Source: Acidimicrobiaceae bacterium (GTDB lineage: Bacteria; Actinomycetota; Acidimicrobiia; Acidimicrobiales; RAAP-2). From it: 45,419 bases of DNA. Location: assembly GCA_013044265.1 (NCBI GenBank), contig JABEUQ010000067.1, positions 1-45,419 of the forward strand. Direction: 5' to 3'. Positions within the stretch are counted from its first letter, which is position 1; every line of letters starts with the position of its first letter. Below, piece after piece: positions 2,043-45,397 of the stretch. Position numbers and translations under genes: made by a program. The notes under the pieces are model-generated. The model did no database searches. It was not told the origin of the DNA and worked only from the letters and a program-made list of their open reading frames with translations.

Positions 2043-2789
2043 AGCCGTCGTCGCACGCAGCAGTGGCGACAGCAAGGCAACTGCTGCGTCAGAAACAGCC
2101 GAGGAGTCATTGACGTCCCAACCAAGGGGAGCACGTTCAGCCCACGTCTCTTCGAACACCTCGAATCCAGGAATGGATTTAGCGGCGATCGTTCGGATAG
2201 GTCCCGCCGACAACATGTTGACGCGAATCTGATCGGGTCCTACCTCACGCGCTAGGTAACGTCCCAGAGATTCCAATCCGGCTTTCATCACACCCATCCA
2301 GTCGTAGAGTGGATACGCACGGCTGGCATCGAAGTCCAATGCGATGACTGAAGCTCCGCCAAGTACCTCGCTCTTTTGCAGCAGCGGACGAAAAGCCCCA
2401 ACGAGAGCTCCCAGGGAGTATGTCGAAATCTGCATGGCCGTCGAAACGTCCTCGAAGGGCGCGACGAACATTCCCGAACCTAGACAACTTGGAGGGGCGT
2501 AGCCAATAGCGTGCACTAACCCGTCGAGACTGCCGAATCGCTCTTCAACAGATTTGACTGCCGAGACAAACTGCGCGGGGTCGGTGACGTCTAGTTCTAT
2601 GACCTCACCGACGTCACCCCATTCATCGAGCTTGCGCGCCGTACGCTTGGTGAGGGAGAGTCCGCGCCCGGCTCCGGTCAGGGCAATACTTGCTCCTTCT
2701 TCGAGCGCTCGGCGAGCTATACCAAAAGCCAGCGAATCATCAGTAAGAACGCCGGTAATCAGGATACGGTGATTGGTCAGTATTGCCAT
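2001..2789 (-). CDS. fabI: Enoyl-ACP reductase, InhA/FabI type
   Basis: This 262-residue short-chain dehydrogenase-like enzyme reduces the trans-2 double bond of enoyl-ACP with NADH, the last step of each fatty acid elongation cycle. The N-terminal ILITGVLTDDSLAFGIA is the FabI form of the nucleotide-binding loop. Tyr162 and Lys169 in YDWMGVMK match InhA Tyr158 and Lys165, and NMLSAGPIRT and the final HVDGGFHAM are typical of InhA. It stands apart from the fabD-fabG-acpP-fabF operon at the other end of the window. Its 3' end overlaps the ABC exporter by 42 bases. The ATG at 2789 is preceded by TACGCT and six bases, so it is probably translated from a leaderless transcript. It is divergent from the F420 reductase gene across only 40 bases. 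Confidence 0.93.
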   Translation of the reverse strand: MAILTNHRILITGVLTDDSLAFGIARRALEEGASIALTGAGRGLSLTKRTARKLDEWGDVGEVIELDVTDPAQFVSAVKSVEERFGSLDGLVHAIGYAPPSCLGSGMFVAPFEDVSTAMQISTYSLGALVGAFRPLLQKSEVLGGASVIALDFDASRAYPLYDWMGVMKAGLESLGRYLAREVGPDQIRVNMLSAGPIRTIAAKSIPGFEVFEETWAERAPLGWDVNDSSAVSDAAVALLSPLLRATTASIIHVDGGFHAMS

Positions 2790-2795
2790 CTTGTT

Positions 2796-2801
2796 AGCGT
2801 A
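2796..2801 (-). promoter_or_regulatory. Leaderless -10 box of fabI
   Basis: TACGCT on the minus strand, six bases upstream of the ATG, with no Shine-Dalgarno sequence between. The spacing puts the transcription start at or beside the A of the start codon. Confidence 0.5.
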
Positions 2802-2829
2802 CTGAAGTTAATCAATCGAAAGGGTACCC

Positions 2830-3480
2830 ATGAGCAGTGTCGGTATTTTGGGGGGAACCGGTCCGGCTGGACAGGGAGTCGCCATTCGTCTCGCGAGCGC
2901 GGGTTACGACGTAGTTTTGGGTTCGCGAGACGCCAATCGGGCCGTGACAGTGGCTGCGGAATTGGCACCGCGCGGTGCGGGCACCGTGACGGGGGCTGAT
3001 AACGAGGGTGCTGCGCAGTGCGACCTCGTGGTGGTGGCGACACCGTGGGACTCAGCCGTCGCAACGGTCAGCGCACTGAAGAATGTGTTGGACGGCAAGA
3101 TCGTGATCTCCATGGTGAATGCCCTGACTCGTGAGGGTCGTGAACTCGTGCCACTGTATCCACCGAGAGGTTCGATGGCGGCACAAATTGCCCACGCGTT
3201 GCCGAGTGCCACCGTAGTGGGGGCTTTCCATCATCTTCCCGCCTCAGAGATGGTCAACCTCGATAGTGAACTCGATGCCGACGTGGTGATATTCGGCGAC
3301 GATGCAGAGGCGAGAGAGAGCGTCGCTCATCTAGTGGAGGCGATGCCGGGACTGCACGCGGTCGTTGCGGGAACCATGTCGTTGGCCAGCGCGATCGAAG
3401 CTTTCACCGCCGTGTGCATCTCGATCAATATTCGCCACAAGGCACACAGTTACGTAAAGCTCGCGGGACTTTCGCACTGA
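2830..3480 (+). CDS. npdG: F420-dependent NADP reductase
   Basis: A 216-residue protein that moves hydride between coenzyme F420 and NADP. The start GILGGTGPAGQG (5-16) is the Rossmann loop of the Fno/NpdG family. Ser32-Arg33 in LGSRDA are placed to bind the NADP 2'-phosphate. The conserved pieces VVVATPWDSA, VGAFHHLPA and the C-terminal INIRHKAHSY also fit the family. GAAAGGG at 2818-2824 precedes the ATG by five bases. It overlaps mshC by one base (TGATG), so the two are probably co-transcribed. The gene implies that the cell makes F420. The main alternative is a generic NADP-binding oxidoreductase of the same fold. Confidence 0.85.
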   Translation: MSSVGILGGTGPAGQGVAIRLASAGYDVVLGSRDANRAVTVAAELAPRGAGTVTGADNEGAAQCDLVVVATPWDSAVATVSALKNVLDGKIVISMVNALTREGRELVPLYPPRGSMAAQIAHALPSATVVGAFHHLPASEMVNLDSELDADVVIFGDDAEARESVAHLVEAMPGLHAVVAGTMSLASAIEAFTAVCISINIRHKAHSYVKLAGLSH

Positions 3481-4613: not shown

Positions 4614-6602
4614 ATGTCAGTTATCGAAATTGAACTACCAGACGGCAGCATTCGCTCGCTCGACGATGGAGCGAATGCCCGTGATTTGGCGACCGCCATT
4701 GGTTCGCGACTTGCCAAGGACGCCCTGGCGGCGCAGGTGAATGGGGAATTGACTGACCTCAGTCGTCCTCTAAAGAACGGTGATGTGGTGTCCATCATCA
4801 CTCCGGGCAGCGATTTGGGCCGTGAGGTGCTGCGCCACTCCACTGCGCACGTGCTGGCCCAGGCCGTCCTTCGCCTCTGGCCGGGTGCGCACTACGCCAT
4901 CGGGCCAGCGATTCGTGATGGCTTCTACTACGACTTCGAATTGCCTGACGGGGCGCGTTTTAGCGACGACGACCTTGGTCGCATCGAGGACGTGATGCGG
5001 ATCATCGTCGTTGAGGACCAACCTTTTGAGAGGGCAGAGTTTTCCATCGAGGAGGGTTTAGAGCTCTTCAAAGATCAGCCGTTCAAAGTTGAGATCATTA
5101 AGGGCGTCGGCTCGGGCGAGAACCCTGAAGACGTGACTGAGGTCGGTGGCTCGGTCGTGTCGACGTATTCCAACACTCCGGAGTTCAAAGATCTCTGTCG
5201 TGGTCCTCACGTGCCATCGACGAAGCGATTGGGCCATTTCAAGTTGATGAGAGTTGCGGGCGCCTATTGGCGCGGCGATGAAAAACGACCACAGCTCCAA
5301 CGCATCTACGGCACGGCCTGGGAATCCAAAGATGCCCTGGCGGCTCACTTGCTTCAACTCGAAGAGGCTGAGAAGCGTGATCACCGACGCCTCGGCCAGG
5401 AGATGGATCTTTTCTCTTTTCCCTCCGAGCTCGGGCCGGGATTGGCAGTCTTTCACCCCAAGGGGGGCACGATGCGCCGAGTGATGGAGGAGTACTCACG
5501 AAGTCGCCACGTCGCCGGAGGCTACGAATTCGTTAATTCACCGCACATCACTAAAGCCGAGTTGTTCGAGACCTCGGGCCACCTGGAGTGGTTTGCCGAT
5601 GGCATGTACCCTCCGATGGAACTGGACGATGGCCAGAATTATTACCTGAAGCCGATGAACTGCCCATTTCATATTTTGATTTTCAAGGCTCGTCAGCGCT
5701 CCTATCGTGAATTGCCGTTGCGTATGTTCGAATTCGGCACGGTGTACCGCTACGAGAAGTCCGGTGCGGTTCACGGCCTGACGCGTGTGCGCGGGATGAC
5801 TCAGGACGACGCGCACATCTTTTGTACCCGCGAGCAGATGGCTCAGGAGTTGAGCGACCTTTTGACCTTCGTGCTCGGTCTGTTGCGCGATTTCGGCCTC
5901 AATGATTTCTACCTGGAACTATCCACACGTCCCGACGCCAAAGCAGTGGGTACCGATGAGGAGTGGCGAGAGGCCGAATACACTTTGGCCGAAGTTGCGC
6001 GCGGTGCCGGACTCGAACTGGTGCTCGACGTAGGTGGTGGCGCGTTTTACGGTCCCAAGATCTCGGTGCAGGCACGTGACGCAATCGGTCGTACTCACCA
6101 GTTGTCGACTATTCAACTCGACTTCCAGTTGCCTCAACGTTTTGATGCGAGTTATATCGCGCCGGATAACGCCCGTCATCGCCCCATCATGATCCATCGT
6201 GCACTCTTTGGCAGCGTGGAACGTTTCATGGCGATTTTGATCGAGCACTACGCCGGCAATATGCCGACGTGGATGTCGCCTGAACAAGTGGTGGTGTTGG
6301 GGGTGCGTGACGACCACGACGCCTATGCCTTTGAGGTGGCTGAACTTCTACGTCTGGACGGTTTGCGCGTCAGTGTGGAAGTCGCGAACGAGCCACTGGG
6401 TGCGCGTATCCGCCGTGCGAAGATGAGCAAGGTGCCCTACGTTCTAGTGGTGGGCGATGACGACGTCGCCGCAGGCACCGTGGGCATAAATGCACGCGGA
6501 GCGAATGACCCCGAGCGTGGGGTAACGATTGAGGATTTCCGCGAGCGGTTGCGTCGTGAGATTGACAATCACGGTTCTCCGGAGCTCACCCGTGCCACTT
6601 GA
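4614..6602 (+). CDS. thrS: Threonyl-tRNA synthetase
   Basis: This 662-residue class II synthetase charges tRNA-Thr. It has the complete bacterial layout: a TGS domain (about 1-65), an editing domain with HSTAH (His75, His79) and the cysteine in KDLCRGPH, a catalytic core with motif 2 around [11 protein letters not shown] and zinc-ligand context MNCPFH, and a C-terminal anticodon-binding domain with [27 protein letters not shown] at 4601-4609 lies four bases before the ATG. It follows mshC by 15 bases. It overlaps the HIT gene by 11 bases if that gene starts at GTG 6592. thrS leads into the PIM genes here, the same order I recall from mycobacteria. Confidence 0.97.
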
Positions 6603-7098
6603 GCGTTTTGCGGCGTCATGGCGAGAGGCCTACGTCTCAAGTCCAGAAGCCGCGTCGCATTCTCGCGATGAGGGGGAGTGCGTGTTTTGCGCACTCGCGC
6701 CGCTTGAGCCGTCTGAAGACTCAGGGGTGCTTTGGCACGACGACTTAAGTTTCGTGACGCTCAACGCCTTTCCTTACGGATCGGGCCATTTACTGGTACT
6801 ACCACGTCGACACGTTGGTTCCCTGAGCGAACTAGGTGACGAGGAGTATTCGTCTTTTTTCTGGACTCTACGTCGAGCCGTTCGCGCATTAGATGCGGCG
6901 TACAACTGTGACGGGATGAACGTGGGAATGAATTTAGGACAGGCCGCGGGTGCGGGAATACCCAAACATCTGCACGGGCACGCCTTGCCTCGCTGGATTG
7001 GAGATACCAACTTCATGAGCACGATCGCCGAGACACGGGTATTGCCGGAATCACTGGTGTCTACGTGGCGAAAAGTGGCTGTACATTTCGCTCACTAG
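6592..7098 (+). CDS. HIT-family nucleotide phosphorylase or hydrolase
   Basis: A 168-residue histidine-triad protein. The triad [10 protein letters not shown] has His126, His128 and His130, the middle residues of the nucleotide-phosphate active site. CVFC at 30-33 is a cysteine pair common in this subgroup. The closest family I recognise is the mycobacterial enzyme encoded next to pgsA1, described as an Ap4A phosphorylase, so breakdown of dinucleoside polyphosphates is the best guess. The GTG at 6592 is chosen because the residues from there match the family length, and CCGGAG lies a few bases upstream. An ATG at 6529 would add 21 residues read from inside thrS. It overlaps the end of thrS by 11 bases. 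Confidence 0.82.
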
Positions 7099-7145
7099 TC
7101 GACCGAAATACCCTCTGTAGACTTCTAAAAGGACGTGGGAGAACG

Positions 7146-7808
7146 ATGTTCGACGGAAAATTCCGCCAATCAGTAGACGCCGTCACCGCCCCCGTGGGTC
7201 GGGTGTTGGTTCGCGCAGGATTCTCCGCTGATGTCCTGACTGCATCCGGCCTAGTCTTCGCCGGGGCGACCGCATGGTGTATCGGAGAGGGCCAATTCGT
7301 CGTGGCCATTGTCCTGCTCGTCCTAACCGGTGCACATGACCTACTGGATGGTGCCGTCGCCAAAGCCAGTAAGCGCGCTAGTCAGCGTGGAAGTTTTTTC
7401 GATTCTGTGGTCGACCGCGTGGCTGATGCTGCTCTACTGGGTGGAGTCGCGTTCTACCTCGAGCGACGTCACCCTGGGGAATTGGTCCTATTACCCTTCG
7501 CACTCTTGACGACGTTCTTCCTCATCTCCTACCAACGGTCCAAGGCTGAAAGTCTTGGGCTGGCCGCCAAAGGTGGGTTGATGGAACGCGCCGAGCGACT
7601 AGTTCTCCTTGGCGTGGCCCTGCTTTCTACGGCGATCTTTGTGCCGGTGCTCTGGATCATGTTGGTGTTGACAACGGCAACGTCGTTCGGTCGTTTCTGG
7701 CGAGTATGGAAGATAGCCGCTCGACCGGCGCCGCGAACGGTCATTGAACGCGCACCGCGCTCGCACGCACGTCGTCCACGTCGCCTTAGTCGTTCGTCTC
7801 GTCACTAA
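7146..7808 (+). CDS. pgsA: Phosphatidylinositol-phosphate synthase
   Basis: A 220-residue membrane enzyme of the CDP-alcohol phosphotransferase family. It is expected to join CDP-diacylglycerol with inositol 3-phosphate, giving the lipid anchor for PIMs. The family signature is visible as Asp65, Asp68, Gly69, Ala72, Gly82, Asp86 and Asp90. The usual Arg after Ala72 is Lys73. Several hydrophobic helices surround it and the tail is rich in Arg. GGGAG (about 7137-7141) precedes ATG 7146. The gene is followed after three bases by the acyltransferase and then by pimA, which supports PI rather than phosphatidylglycerol synthesis. The exact alcohol substrate is inferred from context. Confidence 0.85.
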   Translation: MFDGKFRQSVDAVTAPVGRVLVRAGFSADVLTASGLVFAGATAWCIGEGQFVVAIVLLVLTGAHDLLDGAVAKASKRASQRGSFFDSVVDRVADAALLGGVAFYLERRHPGELVLLPFALLTTFFLISYQRSKAESLGLAAKGGLMERAERLVLLGVALLSTAIFVPVLWIMLVLTTATSFGRFWRVWKIAARPAPRTVIERAPRSHARRPRRLSRSSRH

Positions 7809-40717: not shown

Positions 40718-41446
40718 ATGACTCTGCCCGTTGTCGTCGCCGCCAAAGAAAGTGTCGCGTGGACGTTGGTACGCGCGCGCGGCGTCGACGCGAGAACATT
40801 TCTCCAAGGTCAACTCTCCTGTGACCTAGCGGACTTGAACAGCGAGAAAGTTGTCCAGGGCTTGGTGCTCACCCCCGCAGGAGACGTCGTGACGTCACTA
40901 TGGTGTTACCTGGACCCTGAGGGCGTCGACCTCGTAGTGCGCACTGAAGTGGTCGATCCAACTCTCAGCACGCTGCGGCGATTCCTGCTGAGGACCAAGT
41001 GCTCCTTTGAGTTGGTGACTGAATCGCCCGGACCCTACGAGTCAGTAGGCGAACAAGTCCTGCTGGGCGAGCCTGGACCCGCAGAGTTCATCACCGGTCT
41101 CAGCGCGCACACTTTCGGTCAGCATTTCGTGGCCAGTCACGTCTCTTTTACCAAAGGGTGCTACACCGGCCAGGAACTCGTCGGGCGTCTGGACGCCCGG
41201 GGTGGGAACACGCCCTATCGTCTGGCACGTATGTCCGGAGGCGACGAGGAGCAAATGGACCGGTTAGCGCGCTCAATCGGCCCTCAAGGAGAGAATTCTC
41301 GGCAGGGTGTCACCACTGTCGTGCGAGATCAGGGAATCAGAGCGCTCGCGCTCGTGCACCGCACGCTGATGGGAGATGAGGTTGACGGCGTTCTTGATGG
41401 CGTGAGGGTGGAGATCCTCCACAGTCAGGCCTCGGTCGCCAATTAG
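40718..41446 (+). CDS. ygfZ: YgfZ/GcvT-like folate-binding protein
   Basis: A 242-residue protein of the tetrahydrofolate-binding YgfZ family that helps maintain iron-sulfur enzymes. The signature KGCYTGQE is intact with Cys148, preceded by SHVSFT and followed by LVGRLDARG. The N-terminal FLQGQLSCDL and VLTPAGDVV match the family. It is short compared with E. coli YgfZ (about 326), as in other actinobacteria. The stop TAG at 41444-41446 begins a TAGCCT hexamer in front of the next gene, 22 bases downstream. Confidence 0.9.
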   Translation: MTLPVVVAAKESVAWTLVRARGVDARTFLQGQLSCDLADLNSEKVVQGLVLTPAGDVVTSLWCYLDPEGVDLVVRTEVVDPTLSTLRRFLLRTKCSFELVTESPGPYESVGEQVLLGEPGPAEFITGLSAHTFGQHFVASHVSFTKGCYTGQELVGRLDARGGNTPYRLARMSGGDEEQMDRLARSIGPQGENSRQGVTTVVRDQGIRALALVHRTLMGDEVDGVLDGVRVEILHSQASVAN

Positions 41447-41449: not shown

Positions 41450-41468
41450 GACACTCAGGAGGTAGCGA

Positions 41469-42143
41469 ATGCTGCTCGACGCCGAAGGGCTCTTCATAAA
41501 AGTCTCAGGTCTCACGAGCGAAGCCGACACCCTGTTCGCCATCGGGCTGGGAGCGAATGCTGTTGGTTTCGACTTCGGTCCGACATCCCGTCAAATATCC
41601 GTTGCTGTCGCTCACGACATCGTCCGTCGCCTCCCCAGTGGCGTTGCTACCGTGGGCGTCTTTCATAACGAAATGCCTGAACGCATCGTTCAGATCACCA
41701 ACACGCTCGGCTTGAGCGCAACACAAGTTGAAGGAGTGATTTCCAAGTCATCACTGCGCTACATCGCCGAGCGGGTTCACACCGTAATTCGAGTCGTGCC
41801 CGATCGCGACGAGGCCTACGAATACGAAGCGGATCAGGCAATCGATTATCTCCAGTTGCCCGAGTCCGACCTACATGAGGACATGCTCACTTGTCTTGAT
41901 GTCTACAGTGACCCCCTTCTGTTGTGCCCGCTGATTGCGGCGGGTCTTGACGAATCGAGTGTCGTTGGCGTCGTACAGCACTACGACATTTGGGGGGTAG
42001 ACGTATTGAGTGGCATTGAGAGTTCACCTGGTGTGAAGGACCCCGTCAGAATGGGGGAGTTCATCGCTAATGCCCGGTGGGCCTACAACAATGCCGACAT
42101 TGCCCGTCGAACTTGGCCCGCTGAGGACAGCGAGTTGAACTAA
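41469..42143 (+). CDS. TrpF-like barrel protein without catalytic cysteine
   Basis: A 224-residue protein resembling phosphoribosylanthranilate isomerase. FIKVSGLTSEADTLFAIGLGANAVGF (9-34), a GVFHNE strand, and IWGVDVLSGIESSPGVKDPVRM (174-195) follow TrpF in order. The catalytic Cys of KICGLT is Ser13. The QLHG motif is QVEG (87-90). The GG(S/T)GxxFDW loop is missing; the region reads LQLPESDLHEDML. Only the end phosphate-binding loop GVDVxSGIE is good. Isomerase activity is therefore doubtful, and a different reaction or a binding role is possible. It follows ygfZ by 22 bases with a strong AGGAGG. No other trp gene is in the window. Confidence 0.75.
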   Translation: MLLDAEGLFIKVSGLTSEADTLFAIGLGANAVGFDFGPTSRQISVAVAHDIVRRLPSGVATVGVFHNEMPERIVQITNTLGLSATQVEGVISKSSLRYIAERVHTVIRVVPDRDEAYEYEADQAIDYLQLPESDLHEDMLTCLDVYSDPLLLCPLIAAGLDESSVVGVVQHYDIWGVDVLSGIESSPGVKDPVRMGEFIANARWAYNNADIARRTWPAEDSELN

Positions 42144-42172: not shown

Positions 42173-43372
42173 TTAGTTTTGGTATCTGCGAAAGACGACG
42201 CTGCCATTGTGACCTCCGAAGCCGAAGGAATTGGACAACACCACATCCAGGTCACTAGGGCGAGGTTCACCCAGAACGACGTCGAGGCCAATCTCCGGAT
42301 CCACTTGTGTAGTCCCCGCAGTCGGCGGAATCGTCTGATTCAAGAGCGAGAGAACCGAAACAACTCCCTCAAGGGCCCCGGCAGCCGCTAATGAATGGCC
42401 CAAATGACCTTTCACCGAAGTCACAGGTGGCACTCGATTATCGAAGACATGGCGCATCGCCACCGACTCCGCCAAGTCGTTCAGTGGAGTTGAGGTCCCG
42501 TGAGCATTGATATGCGAGACGTCATTCGCGCTGATGTCGGCGTCAGCGAGTGCAGTCGCCATGCAACGAATCGCCCCCGAACCTAGGGGGTCAGGGGCCG
42601 TGATGTGATACGAATCGGCGGTGGACGCCGCACCAATCACTTCGGCCAGGATGGTGGCACCTCGCGCGAGAGCGTGATCCCACTCTTCGAGGATCAAGAC
42701 GCCCGCTCCTTCTCCCATGACAAAGCCATCCCGGTCAACGTCAAAGGGACGTGAGAATTCAGTGTTCGACAGAGCCGTCATATTGCGAAAGCCCGATTCA
42801 GCGATTTGAACTATCACCGCTTCGGCCCCGCCAGCCACAGCGACCGTCGAACGACCGGAGGCCACCATGCGTGCCGCATTACCAATGGCGTGAGTGCCCG
42901 CAGCGCAAGCAGTCGTCACCGTCTCACAGGGGCCGCCCAAGCCGAATCGCATCGACACCGCAGCCGATGCCGCGTTGGGCATCATCATGGGAACCATGAA
43001 TGGCGACACGCGCGCCGGCCCCTTGTCGTTCAGAATTCGCACTTGTTCCAGCACGGTCTGTAGTCCACCGATGCCGGTGGTCACCACGCAAGCCGCATCT
43101 AGAAGAGGACCCTCGAGCCCACTTTGGCGCCAGGCCTCATCAGCGGCCATAAGACCGTAGAGGCTGAACGGATCGAGCCGACGAAGTTCCTTCGGGCCAC
43201 CAAGGTGATCAGCGTTGAACGGAGCGAGCCGCTTCGATTCAGGAGCGGTGTCCTTCTGCAGTGCCTGCCAGAGAGCATCAACCCCAACTCCCGCGCACGA
43301 CAATGCCCCCAGTCCAACGACTGCGACGCGACGACCTTGAAGTGGCCCCGACGAGGTAACCGCGACTTGCAC
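42173..43372 (-). CDS. fabF: 3-oxoacyl-ACP synthase II
   Basis: A 399-residue condensing enzyme that extends acyl-ACP with malonyl-ACP. The Cys-His-His triad is Cys156 in TTACAAGTHAIG, His291 in INAHGTSTPLND and His326 in SVKGHLGHSLAAAG, with Lys321. NSFGFGGHN closes the fold. GTG 43372 shares its G with the TAG stop of acpP. It ends the fabD-fabG-acpP-fabF operon. In mycolate-making relatives the equivalent genes are kasA/kasB; nothing here shows very long chain specificity. Confidence 0.95.
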   Translation of the reverse strand: MQVAVTSSGPLQGRRVAVVGLGALSCAGVGVDALWQALQKDTAPESKRLAPFNADHLGGPKELRRLDPFSLYGLMAADEAWRQSGLEGPLLDAACVVTTGIGGLQTVLEQVRILNDKGPARVSPFMVPMMMPNAASAAVSMRFGLGGPCETVTTACAAGTHAIGNAARMVASGRSTVAVAGGAEAVIVQIAESGFRNMTALSNTEFSRPFDVDRDGFVMGEGAGVLILEEWDHALARGATILAEVIGAASTADSYHITAPDPLGSGAIRCMATALADADISANDVSHINAHGTSTPLNDLAESVAMRHVFDNRVPPVTSVKGHLGHSLAAAGALEGVVSVLSLLNQTIPPTAGTTQVDPEIGLDVVLGEPRPSDLDVVLSNSFGFGGHNGSVVFRRYQN

Positions 43373-45308: not shown

Positions 45309-45314
45309 ACAGCG

Positions 45315-45397
45315 TGCCCGGGGCGGGACTCGAACCCGCACGCCCTCTCGAGCAAAGGATTTTGAGTCCTCCGCGTCTGCCATTCCGCCACCCGGGC
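45315..45397 (-). tRNA. tRNA-Leu, anticodon CAA
   Basis: An 83-base class II tRNA. The acceptor GCCCGGG pairs with CCCGGGC, with discriminator A at 45315. The D arm has a GCG/CGC stem. The anticodon stem GAGGA/TCCTT holds loop CTCAAAA with CAA at 45362-45364, reading codon UUG. A long variable arm follows, and the T arm GCGGG-TTCGAGT-CCCGC is standard. The 3' CCA is not encoded. Confidence 0.95.

Follow-up and report, generated by a model that had tools for sequence, protein, structure and literature searches.

What does a gene do that keeps the fold of TrpF, stands where a trp operon probably once stood, and lacks the residues that make TrpF an enzyme? The question is raised by a TrpF-like reading frame between ygfZ and fabF in the draft genome of an Acidimicrobiaceae bacterium. 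For the evolution of (beta/alpha)8 enzymes, TrpF serves as a textbook model, and annotation at the Pfam level would label this protein a PRA isomerase; its residues argue against the label. An earlier note had read the gene, here called the orphan, as a barrel relieved of isomerase function that may act on a phosphorylated substrate. The window analyzed here is a stretch of 45,419 nt, contig C197 of a 2.8 Mb genome assembly that is 90% complete.

An intact TrpF-like gene and a canonical trpF elsewhere in the genome

As the earlier note had it, the orphan has an intact frame and a ribosome-binding site of its own (Table 1), with 22 nt between the end of ygfZ (41446) and its ATG. A start codon occupies this position in 60/60 aligned orthologues (46 GTG, 14 ATG) and is preceded by a Shine-Dalgarno-like match in 51 of them, both of which support the start position. 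These 60 full-length orphans comprise 57 from surveyed genomes and three from named contigs only. Toward the end of the window, a tRNA-Leu (CAA) at 45314-45397 (-) falls within the longest fabD reading frame, toward its 5′ end, which probably puts the real start of fabD further downstream.

Table 1. Features of the orphan locus (window coordinates) and alignment rows carrying the C-terminal tail of canonical TrpF
Feature	Position	Strand	Basis
Orphan TrpF-like CDS, 224 aa	41469..42143	+	Intact ORF, Pfam PRAI, ortholog alignment
Shine-Dalgarno AGGAGG	41457..41462	+	Ends 6 nt before ATG
ygfZ-like neighbor, upstream flank of old trp operon site	40718..41446	+	
fabF, convergent, downstream flank of old trp operon site	42173..43372	-	
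Codon 13, Ser replacing catalytic Cys	41505..41507	+	Alignment
Codon 35, new acid, end of strand beta2	41571..41573	+	Alignment; strand from AlphaFold model
Codons 131-135, PESDL replacing catalytic Asp and start of Gly-rich mobile loop	41859..41873	+	
Codons 178-191, retained phosphate-binding segment, DVLSGIESSPGVKD	42000..42041	+	
[FY]DW tail rows	Order level L158-L163, L177-L183, L185-L196, L207; family loci L044-L063, L065-L067		

The Pfam family PRAI matches the orphan protein with 66.2 bits (cut-off 22.7) and recognizes 52 of the 54 scanned members of the 60-strong orphan clade; His_biosynth (PF00977) gave no match in the 54 orphans scanned, PRAI being the only family found at E 0.001. 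The orphan stays below all NCBIfam equivalog cut-offs (best 92.6 of 215), as do 3/3 canonical TrpF controls from the same family, and the cut-offs were dropped as proof of non-membership in TrpF because the controls also fail. Two PRAI matches are found in the genome: the orphan (63.8 bits) and a canonical trpF (137.4 bits) on contig C104, within trpC-trpF-trpB and with trpA next in line. The second, canonical copy for which the earlier note had proposed to look is thus present; the orphan is not the only trpF of its genome, so that the first of the note's refuting conditions did not overturn its reading. In another orphan-bearing genome (G115, 86% complete) a canonical trpF was not found, perhaps owing to missing sequence. 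Replacement of HisA by the orphan was also considered and rejected, the window genome having two strong HisA/HisF-type matches (C242); among 45 genus genomes searched, G084 and G138 hold the orphan without a strong match of this type.

Structure prediction, likewise proposed in the earlier note, returned a confident TrpF-type barrel (AlphaFold, pLDDT 93.7, from an alignment of 54/60 orphans), for which the best solved folds in Foldseek are TrpF. A short helix is predicted at residues 136-141, where the mobile loop of the canonical enzyme would stand. The canonical TrpF of the same genome, modeled as a control on a shallower alignment (32 rows versus 54), shows coil at the loop, at lower confidence. 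Ribulose-phosphate epimerase-like chemistry, suggested by the acid on beta2, was set aside: epimerases rank below TrpF in Foldseek, and their partner residues are absent.

Both catalytic residues and the mobile loop are lost

Residues were counted in the 60 full-length orphans and in 49 canonical TrpFs. Shortened orphans in G100 (L083), G112 (L175) and L042 and a shortened canonical copy in G004 (L064) were left out, and no ygfZ or fabF lies within the stretch fetched for canonical rows L047, L048 and L067, all of them from other genera. We take the catalytic Cys of TrpF to lie at the end of beta1, the catalytic (general-acid) Asp at the end of beta6, the Gly-rich mobile loop after beta6, and the phosphate-binding segments at beta7 and beta8.

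The Cys found in 48/49 canonical TrpFs occurs in 0/60 orphans, which have Ser (53), Ala (6) or Gly (1) at residue 13. At residue 131, where all 49 canonical proteins have Asp, Pro stands in the window protein and in 54/60 orphans; the four orphans with an aligned Asp all belong to one much-altered sublineage. The PGSG loop is present in 49/49 canonical TrpFs and in none of the orphans, the window protein having PESDLHEDMLTCL where the canonical enzyme has D..PGSG..FDW. It also reads QVEG for canonical QLHG, and residue 88 is an acid in 44/60 orphans as against His in 48/49 canonical proteins. The three changes described in the earlier note (Cys to Ser13, QLHG to QVEG, and the missing GG(S/T)GxxFDW segment) were all borne out in the window protein, and both Ser13 and the altered loop proved to be conserved across the orthologues. 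Two further changes come on top of these, namely, the lost catalytic Asp (Pro131) and an acid at residue 35, which is Asp or Glu in 60/60 orphans and in 0/49 canonical TrpFs, 47 of which have Ile or Val.

The overall TrpF order and the terminal phosphate loop are kept, as had been claimed; at the phosphate loop the window protein retains DVLSGIESSPGVKD, with Glu184 found in 56, Asp178 in 53 and Lys190 in 52 of the 60 orphans. Lys11, Arg41 and Gln86 are each retained in 49/60, and Arg108 in 56/60, where 46/49 canonical proteins have Lys or Arg. Orphans further share Asp134 (53/60), Asp/Glu132 (50/60) and Arg180 (45/60), as well as Tyr98 (56/60 versus 6/49 canonical), Gln170 (51/60 versus 0/49) and Trp204 (53/60 versus 4/49). 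Because Trp204 and the NARWAY segment are shared by some of the genus's canonical TrpFs from the old site, part of this outer patch is inherited. Judged by the alignment, the changes that set the orphans apart are beyond chance, since they are common to most or all of the 60 orthologues. From the loss of Cys, Asp and PGSG loop together, we infer that the orphan no longer functions as a PRA isomerase, in line with the earlier proposal.

Some sublineages depart from this pattern. Ser13, Arg41, the acid at residue 88, Glu132 and Asp134 are all gone from the sublineage L041/L069-L071, in which dN/dS among L069-L071 is 0.05 to 0.08. Two orphans of a second sublineage, L072 (G093, 6505-7179) and L073 (G143, 2610-3284), have lost the phosphate-binding segment and have open frames. 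Among the canonical copies, the TrpF of an old-site trpC-trpF-trpB cluster in G135 (L074, 3368-4060) carries Asp for the catalytic Cys (IDGVT) and is the only trpF found in that genome.

The orphan stands at the probable old site of the trp operon

The family search covered 150 genomes and gave matches in 147; 77 of the 150 belong to the genus of the window, and for the majority of them the locus was read. Old- and new-site calls followed a 7.5 kb neighborhood rule, as a 1.5 kb rule mislabeled old-site loci as new. States were read from genes and residues because score or identity alone gives no separation, the canonical copy of G028 lying about level with the orphan of G040.

The order ygfZ-trpC-trpF-trpB is found in 10 genus-mates, with the catalytic Cys in nine of the 10 TrpFs (Asp in G135). 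It also occurs in other genera of the family. Convergent fabF lies downstream at the old site, and trpA follows trpB there in the two genomes checked (G097 and G028). By comparison, 59 genomes read have a TrpF-like gene without adjacent trpC or trpB at this site (57 full-length, two ended by contig edges), and five more (G089, G091, G128, G132, G137) probably do. Over the 77 genus genomes, the tally is at most 64 with the orphan, 10 with the old operon, two with neither and one (G130) in which no fabF match was found. In G062 (L170, 1635-1655) and G102 (L169, 7289-7292), ygfZ abuts fabF; the orphan is gone and the new-site trpC-trpF-trpB is kept.

These arrangements bear on the neighborhood of ygfZ, which the earlier note had taken as a hint of function. 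The adjacency is inherited from the old ygfZ-trpC-trpF-trpB order and so gives no information on what the orphan does, and G134 and G099 keep the orphan with about 1.7 and 4.5 kb separating it from ygfZ. We therefore dropped a functional link between the two genes as evidence.

The orphan profile, run against 198 genomes from across the order, matched 187 of them. Among the matches listed, those outside the genus reach at most 201 bits, compared with 270 to 364 for three orphans, a range into which the canonical copy of G028 also falls (270.6); five genomes outside the genus (G238, G250, G251, G293, G296) have two listed matches each. Two orthologue records are labeled Acidobacteria/Acidobacteriota, probably wrongly, as their sequences fall inside the clade. 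Two orthologue isolate names suggest peat (bog, palsa).

A probable single origin within the lineage

The 60 orphans form a single clade (SH-aLRT 100), the separate grouping of orthologues that had been proposed as a check. In a careful order-rooted tree holding 30 of the 60, this clade has 100/100 support and attaches to canonical TrpFs from the genus's old site; a wider clade (100/99) takes in every TrpF of the genus, those of the new site among them. In the TrpC and TrpB trees, too, the copies of the new site fall with those of the old site in the genus (SH-aLRT 96 and 84, respectively). The single TrpF clade and the grouping of TrpC and TrpB favor duplication or relocation over import. An E. 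coli-rooted TrpF tree had hinted that the new trp operon came in horizontally, a reading set aside after the TrpB, TrpC and order-rooted TrpF trees. Two old-site TrpFs, those of G009 (L091/L152) and G088 (L098/L173), cluster with the new-site TrpFs (99/99), which might reflect gene conversion, replacement or an effect of long branches.

In a tree of eight neighboring proteins from 58 loci, built under a simple model and with long-branch warnings, two state changes suffice, one between old operon and orphan and one leading to deletion. G062 and G102, which lack the gene, nest among the orphan loci next to G093, which has a much-altered copy.

Going by gene order and by the residues, the orphan is very probably the old-site trpF left behind when the trp operon was duplicated or relocated within the lineage, its PRA-isomerase chemistry having been lost. 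The new-site trpC-F-B-A cluster would serve tryptophan synthesis. The old site would have shed trpC and trpB (together with trpA) and retained trpF, which would have lost both catalytic residues and the mobile loop and stayed under purifying selection since its single origin. Complete operon, orphan and empty site all survive at one locus, a natural experiment run once. The locus thereby opens two questions to experiment: by which substitutions an essential isomerase becomes something else, and whether an enzyme or a pseudoenzyme comes of it.

Purifying selection with no privilege for the catalytic face

Selection was assessed on orphan pairs with dS of 0.15 to 1.5 only (n = 1195). The 13 pairs with the lowest dS (0.16 to 0.52) have dN/dS of 0.03 to 0.30, with a median of 0.09; the next three by dS have 0.28, 0.72 and 0.29. 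Over all 1195 pairs the median is 0.33, compared with 0.35 for old-site canonical TrpF (114 pairs), saturation inflating the values of distant pairs. The window protein differs from five near relatives by dN of 0.17 to 0.22 with dS near saturation; over seven loci, dN is 0.28 to 0.48 for ygfZ and 0.05 to 0.14 for fabF. The claim that the gene is not decaying is well supported by the low dN/dS of close pairs, the shared start and the 60 intact frames.

Where this constraint falls was examined by dividing the barrel into catalytic face, opposite face and rest by predicted strands, without coordinates, and with canonical rows L091 and L098 excluded. The catalytic face evolves at a relative rate of 0.51 to 0.55 in canonical TrpF (p 5e-6 and 2e-8) and of 0.88 to 0.90 in the orphans (p 0.39 to 0.55), the opposite face at about 1.3 and 1.02 to 1.04, respectively. 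Likewise, the catalytic face accounts for 25 of the 50 slowest sites in each of the two canonical sets (p 4e-5), as compared with 10 to 11 in the orphans and 13.4 expected. Relative rates and slowest sites thus agree that this face has lost its privilege in the orphans. For a shift of constraint to a particular new surface, the first Fisher test (p 0.004) was withdrawn as biased, since the sites of the catalytic face are slow to begin with in canonical TrpF. In the corrected test, the deficit of catalytic-face sites among those variable in canonical TrpF and slow in the orphans (23/87) is not significant (1 versus 12 eligible, p 0.17). The conservation of single residues such as Gln170 and Tyr98 in the orphans is suggestive.

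A possible ligand-binding pseudoenzyme or new enzyme

We tentatively favor a reading in which the orphan is a pseudoenzyme that binds a phosphorylated ligand and acts through a putative partner. The protein, still folding as a TrpF barrel, would hold its ligand by means of the phosphate loops it has kept at beta7/beta8 and of a charged pocket of altered shape (Asp/Glu35, Arg41, Arg108, Asp134). Its output would be contact with a candidate partner protein by way of the barrel's bottom and outer helices, where Tyr98, Thr105, Gln170 and Trp204 are conserved in the orphans and much less so in canonical TrpF. Such a protein would sense or regulate rather than catalyze. The pocket positions Asp/Glu35, Arg108, Asp134, Ser13 and Asp/Glu132 are not drifting, so that a new active site fits them as well as a binding site does.

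The main rival, a new enzyme, is a realistic though less probable prospect. Here, the retooled pocket, formed by Asp/Glu35 (beta2), Ser13 (beta1), Asp/Glu88 (beta4) and Asp/Glu132 with Asp134 (after beta6), would act on a phosphorylated substrate in a reaction other than that of TrpF, Asp/Glu35 probably serving as acid/base. The fixation of the acid at 35 in every orphan and in no canonical copy speaks for it, as do the shared Asp134, Asp/Glu132, Arg180 and Asp/Glu88, the phosphate end kept in most orphans, purifying selection and the nonsignificant outcome of the corrected constraint-shift test. However, the catalytic face is no slower than the remainder of the protein, and Pro replaces the former general acid in most orphans. 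The sublineage L041/L069-L071, moreover, has given up several residues of the proposed pocket and yet keeps a low dN/dS, and L072 and L073 have lost the phosphate segment. A more specific version, namely, a phosphosugar-type enzyme derived from TrpF in one event, with Asp/Glu35 on beta2 replacing the Cys/Asp pair and the states before, after and deleted preserved at one site, is slightly less probable again.

An improbable third reading is subfunctionalization. The TrpF of this order ends in a variable, commonly acidic C-terminal linker that closes with [FY]DW and looks like a short docking motif. Under subfunctionalization, the ancestral TrpF of the order would have had a second, noncatalytic role tied to this tail; the new-site copy would have kept catalysis and lost the tail, and the old-site copy would have kept the other role and lost catalysis. 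The tail is present in 23/23 canonical TrpFs of other family genera (20 at the old site, three without site context) and in 24/26 of other families of the order, compared with 0/16 new-site TrpFs of the window's genus, and a Trp lies within the last 12 residues in 44/60 orphans. Against this, [FY]DW itself occurs in 0/60 orphans, where homology of the tail Trp is only putative, and in just 5/10 old-site TrpFs of the genus. Beyond the order, a strict test found the motif in 0/27 TrpFs elsewhere in the phylum; L214, a member of the same class, carries PYDW at an internal position.

That the orphan retains PRA-isomerase activity by way of Ser13, if only as a weak backup, is very unlikely. Most orphans keep Arg41 and the phosphate loops, and the Asp for Cys in the sole trpF of G135 suggests that the Cys may be replaceable, but the general-acid Asp and the PGSG loop have gone as well and the trp cluster has its own canonical trpF. 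A functionless relic in slow decay, to which the outright deletions in G062 and G102 and the much-altered copy of their nearest lineage read (G093) might point, is hardly credible in view of 60 intact full-length frames with a conserved start, low close-pair dN/dS and shared derived residues.

Relation to known systems

The orphan resembles TrpF (PF00697; PDB 1lbm, 1nsj, 4wui) in fold, descent and phosphate-binding end, including Lys11, Arg41 and Gln86. It differs in lacking the catalytic Cys, the Asp and the PGSG loop, in the acid at 35, and in standing outside a trp cluster while a canonical copy is kept elsewhere. Among the matches listed for the open-access literature, judged by titles and abstract openings, no description of a TrpF-derived pseudoenzyme or of the orphan gene was found.

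The nearest parallels are of two kinds. A pseudoenzyme of eudicot plants, the TSB-like protein, is also a tryptophan-pathway paralogue that was kept after losing two essential residues, according to its report (PMC12727527). It derives, however, from a TrpB-type subunit, and its partner, TSA, and its allosteric activity have been shown there, whereas any partner of the orphan is putative. In the same phylum as the orphan, PriA, SubTrpF2 and AdeK of Actinomycetota, as two reports describe them (PMC13055916, PMC4462073), likewise represent lineage-specific change of function in phosphoribosyl-isomerase barrels. These are HisA-family barrels in which HisA or TrpF activity is still seen in complementation (PMC13055916); by contrast, the parent of the orphan is TrpF, and its catalytic residues are lost. 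The HisA of Acidimicrobium ferrooxidans is reported to have HisA activity and no TrpF activity (PMC4462073), which fits the idea that these bacteria need a true trpF.
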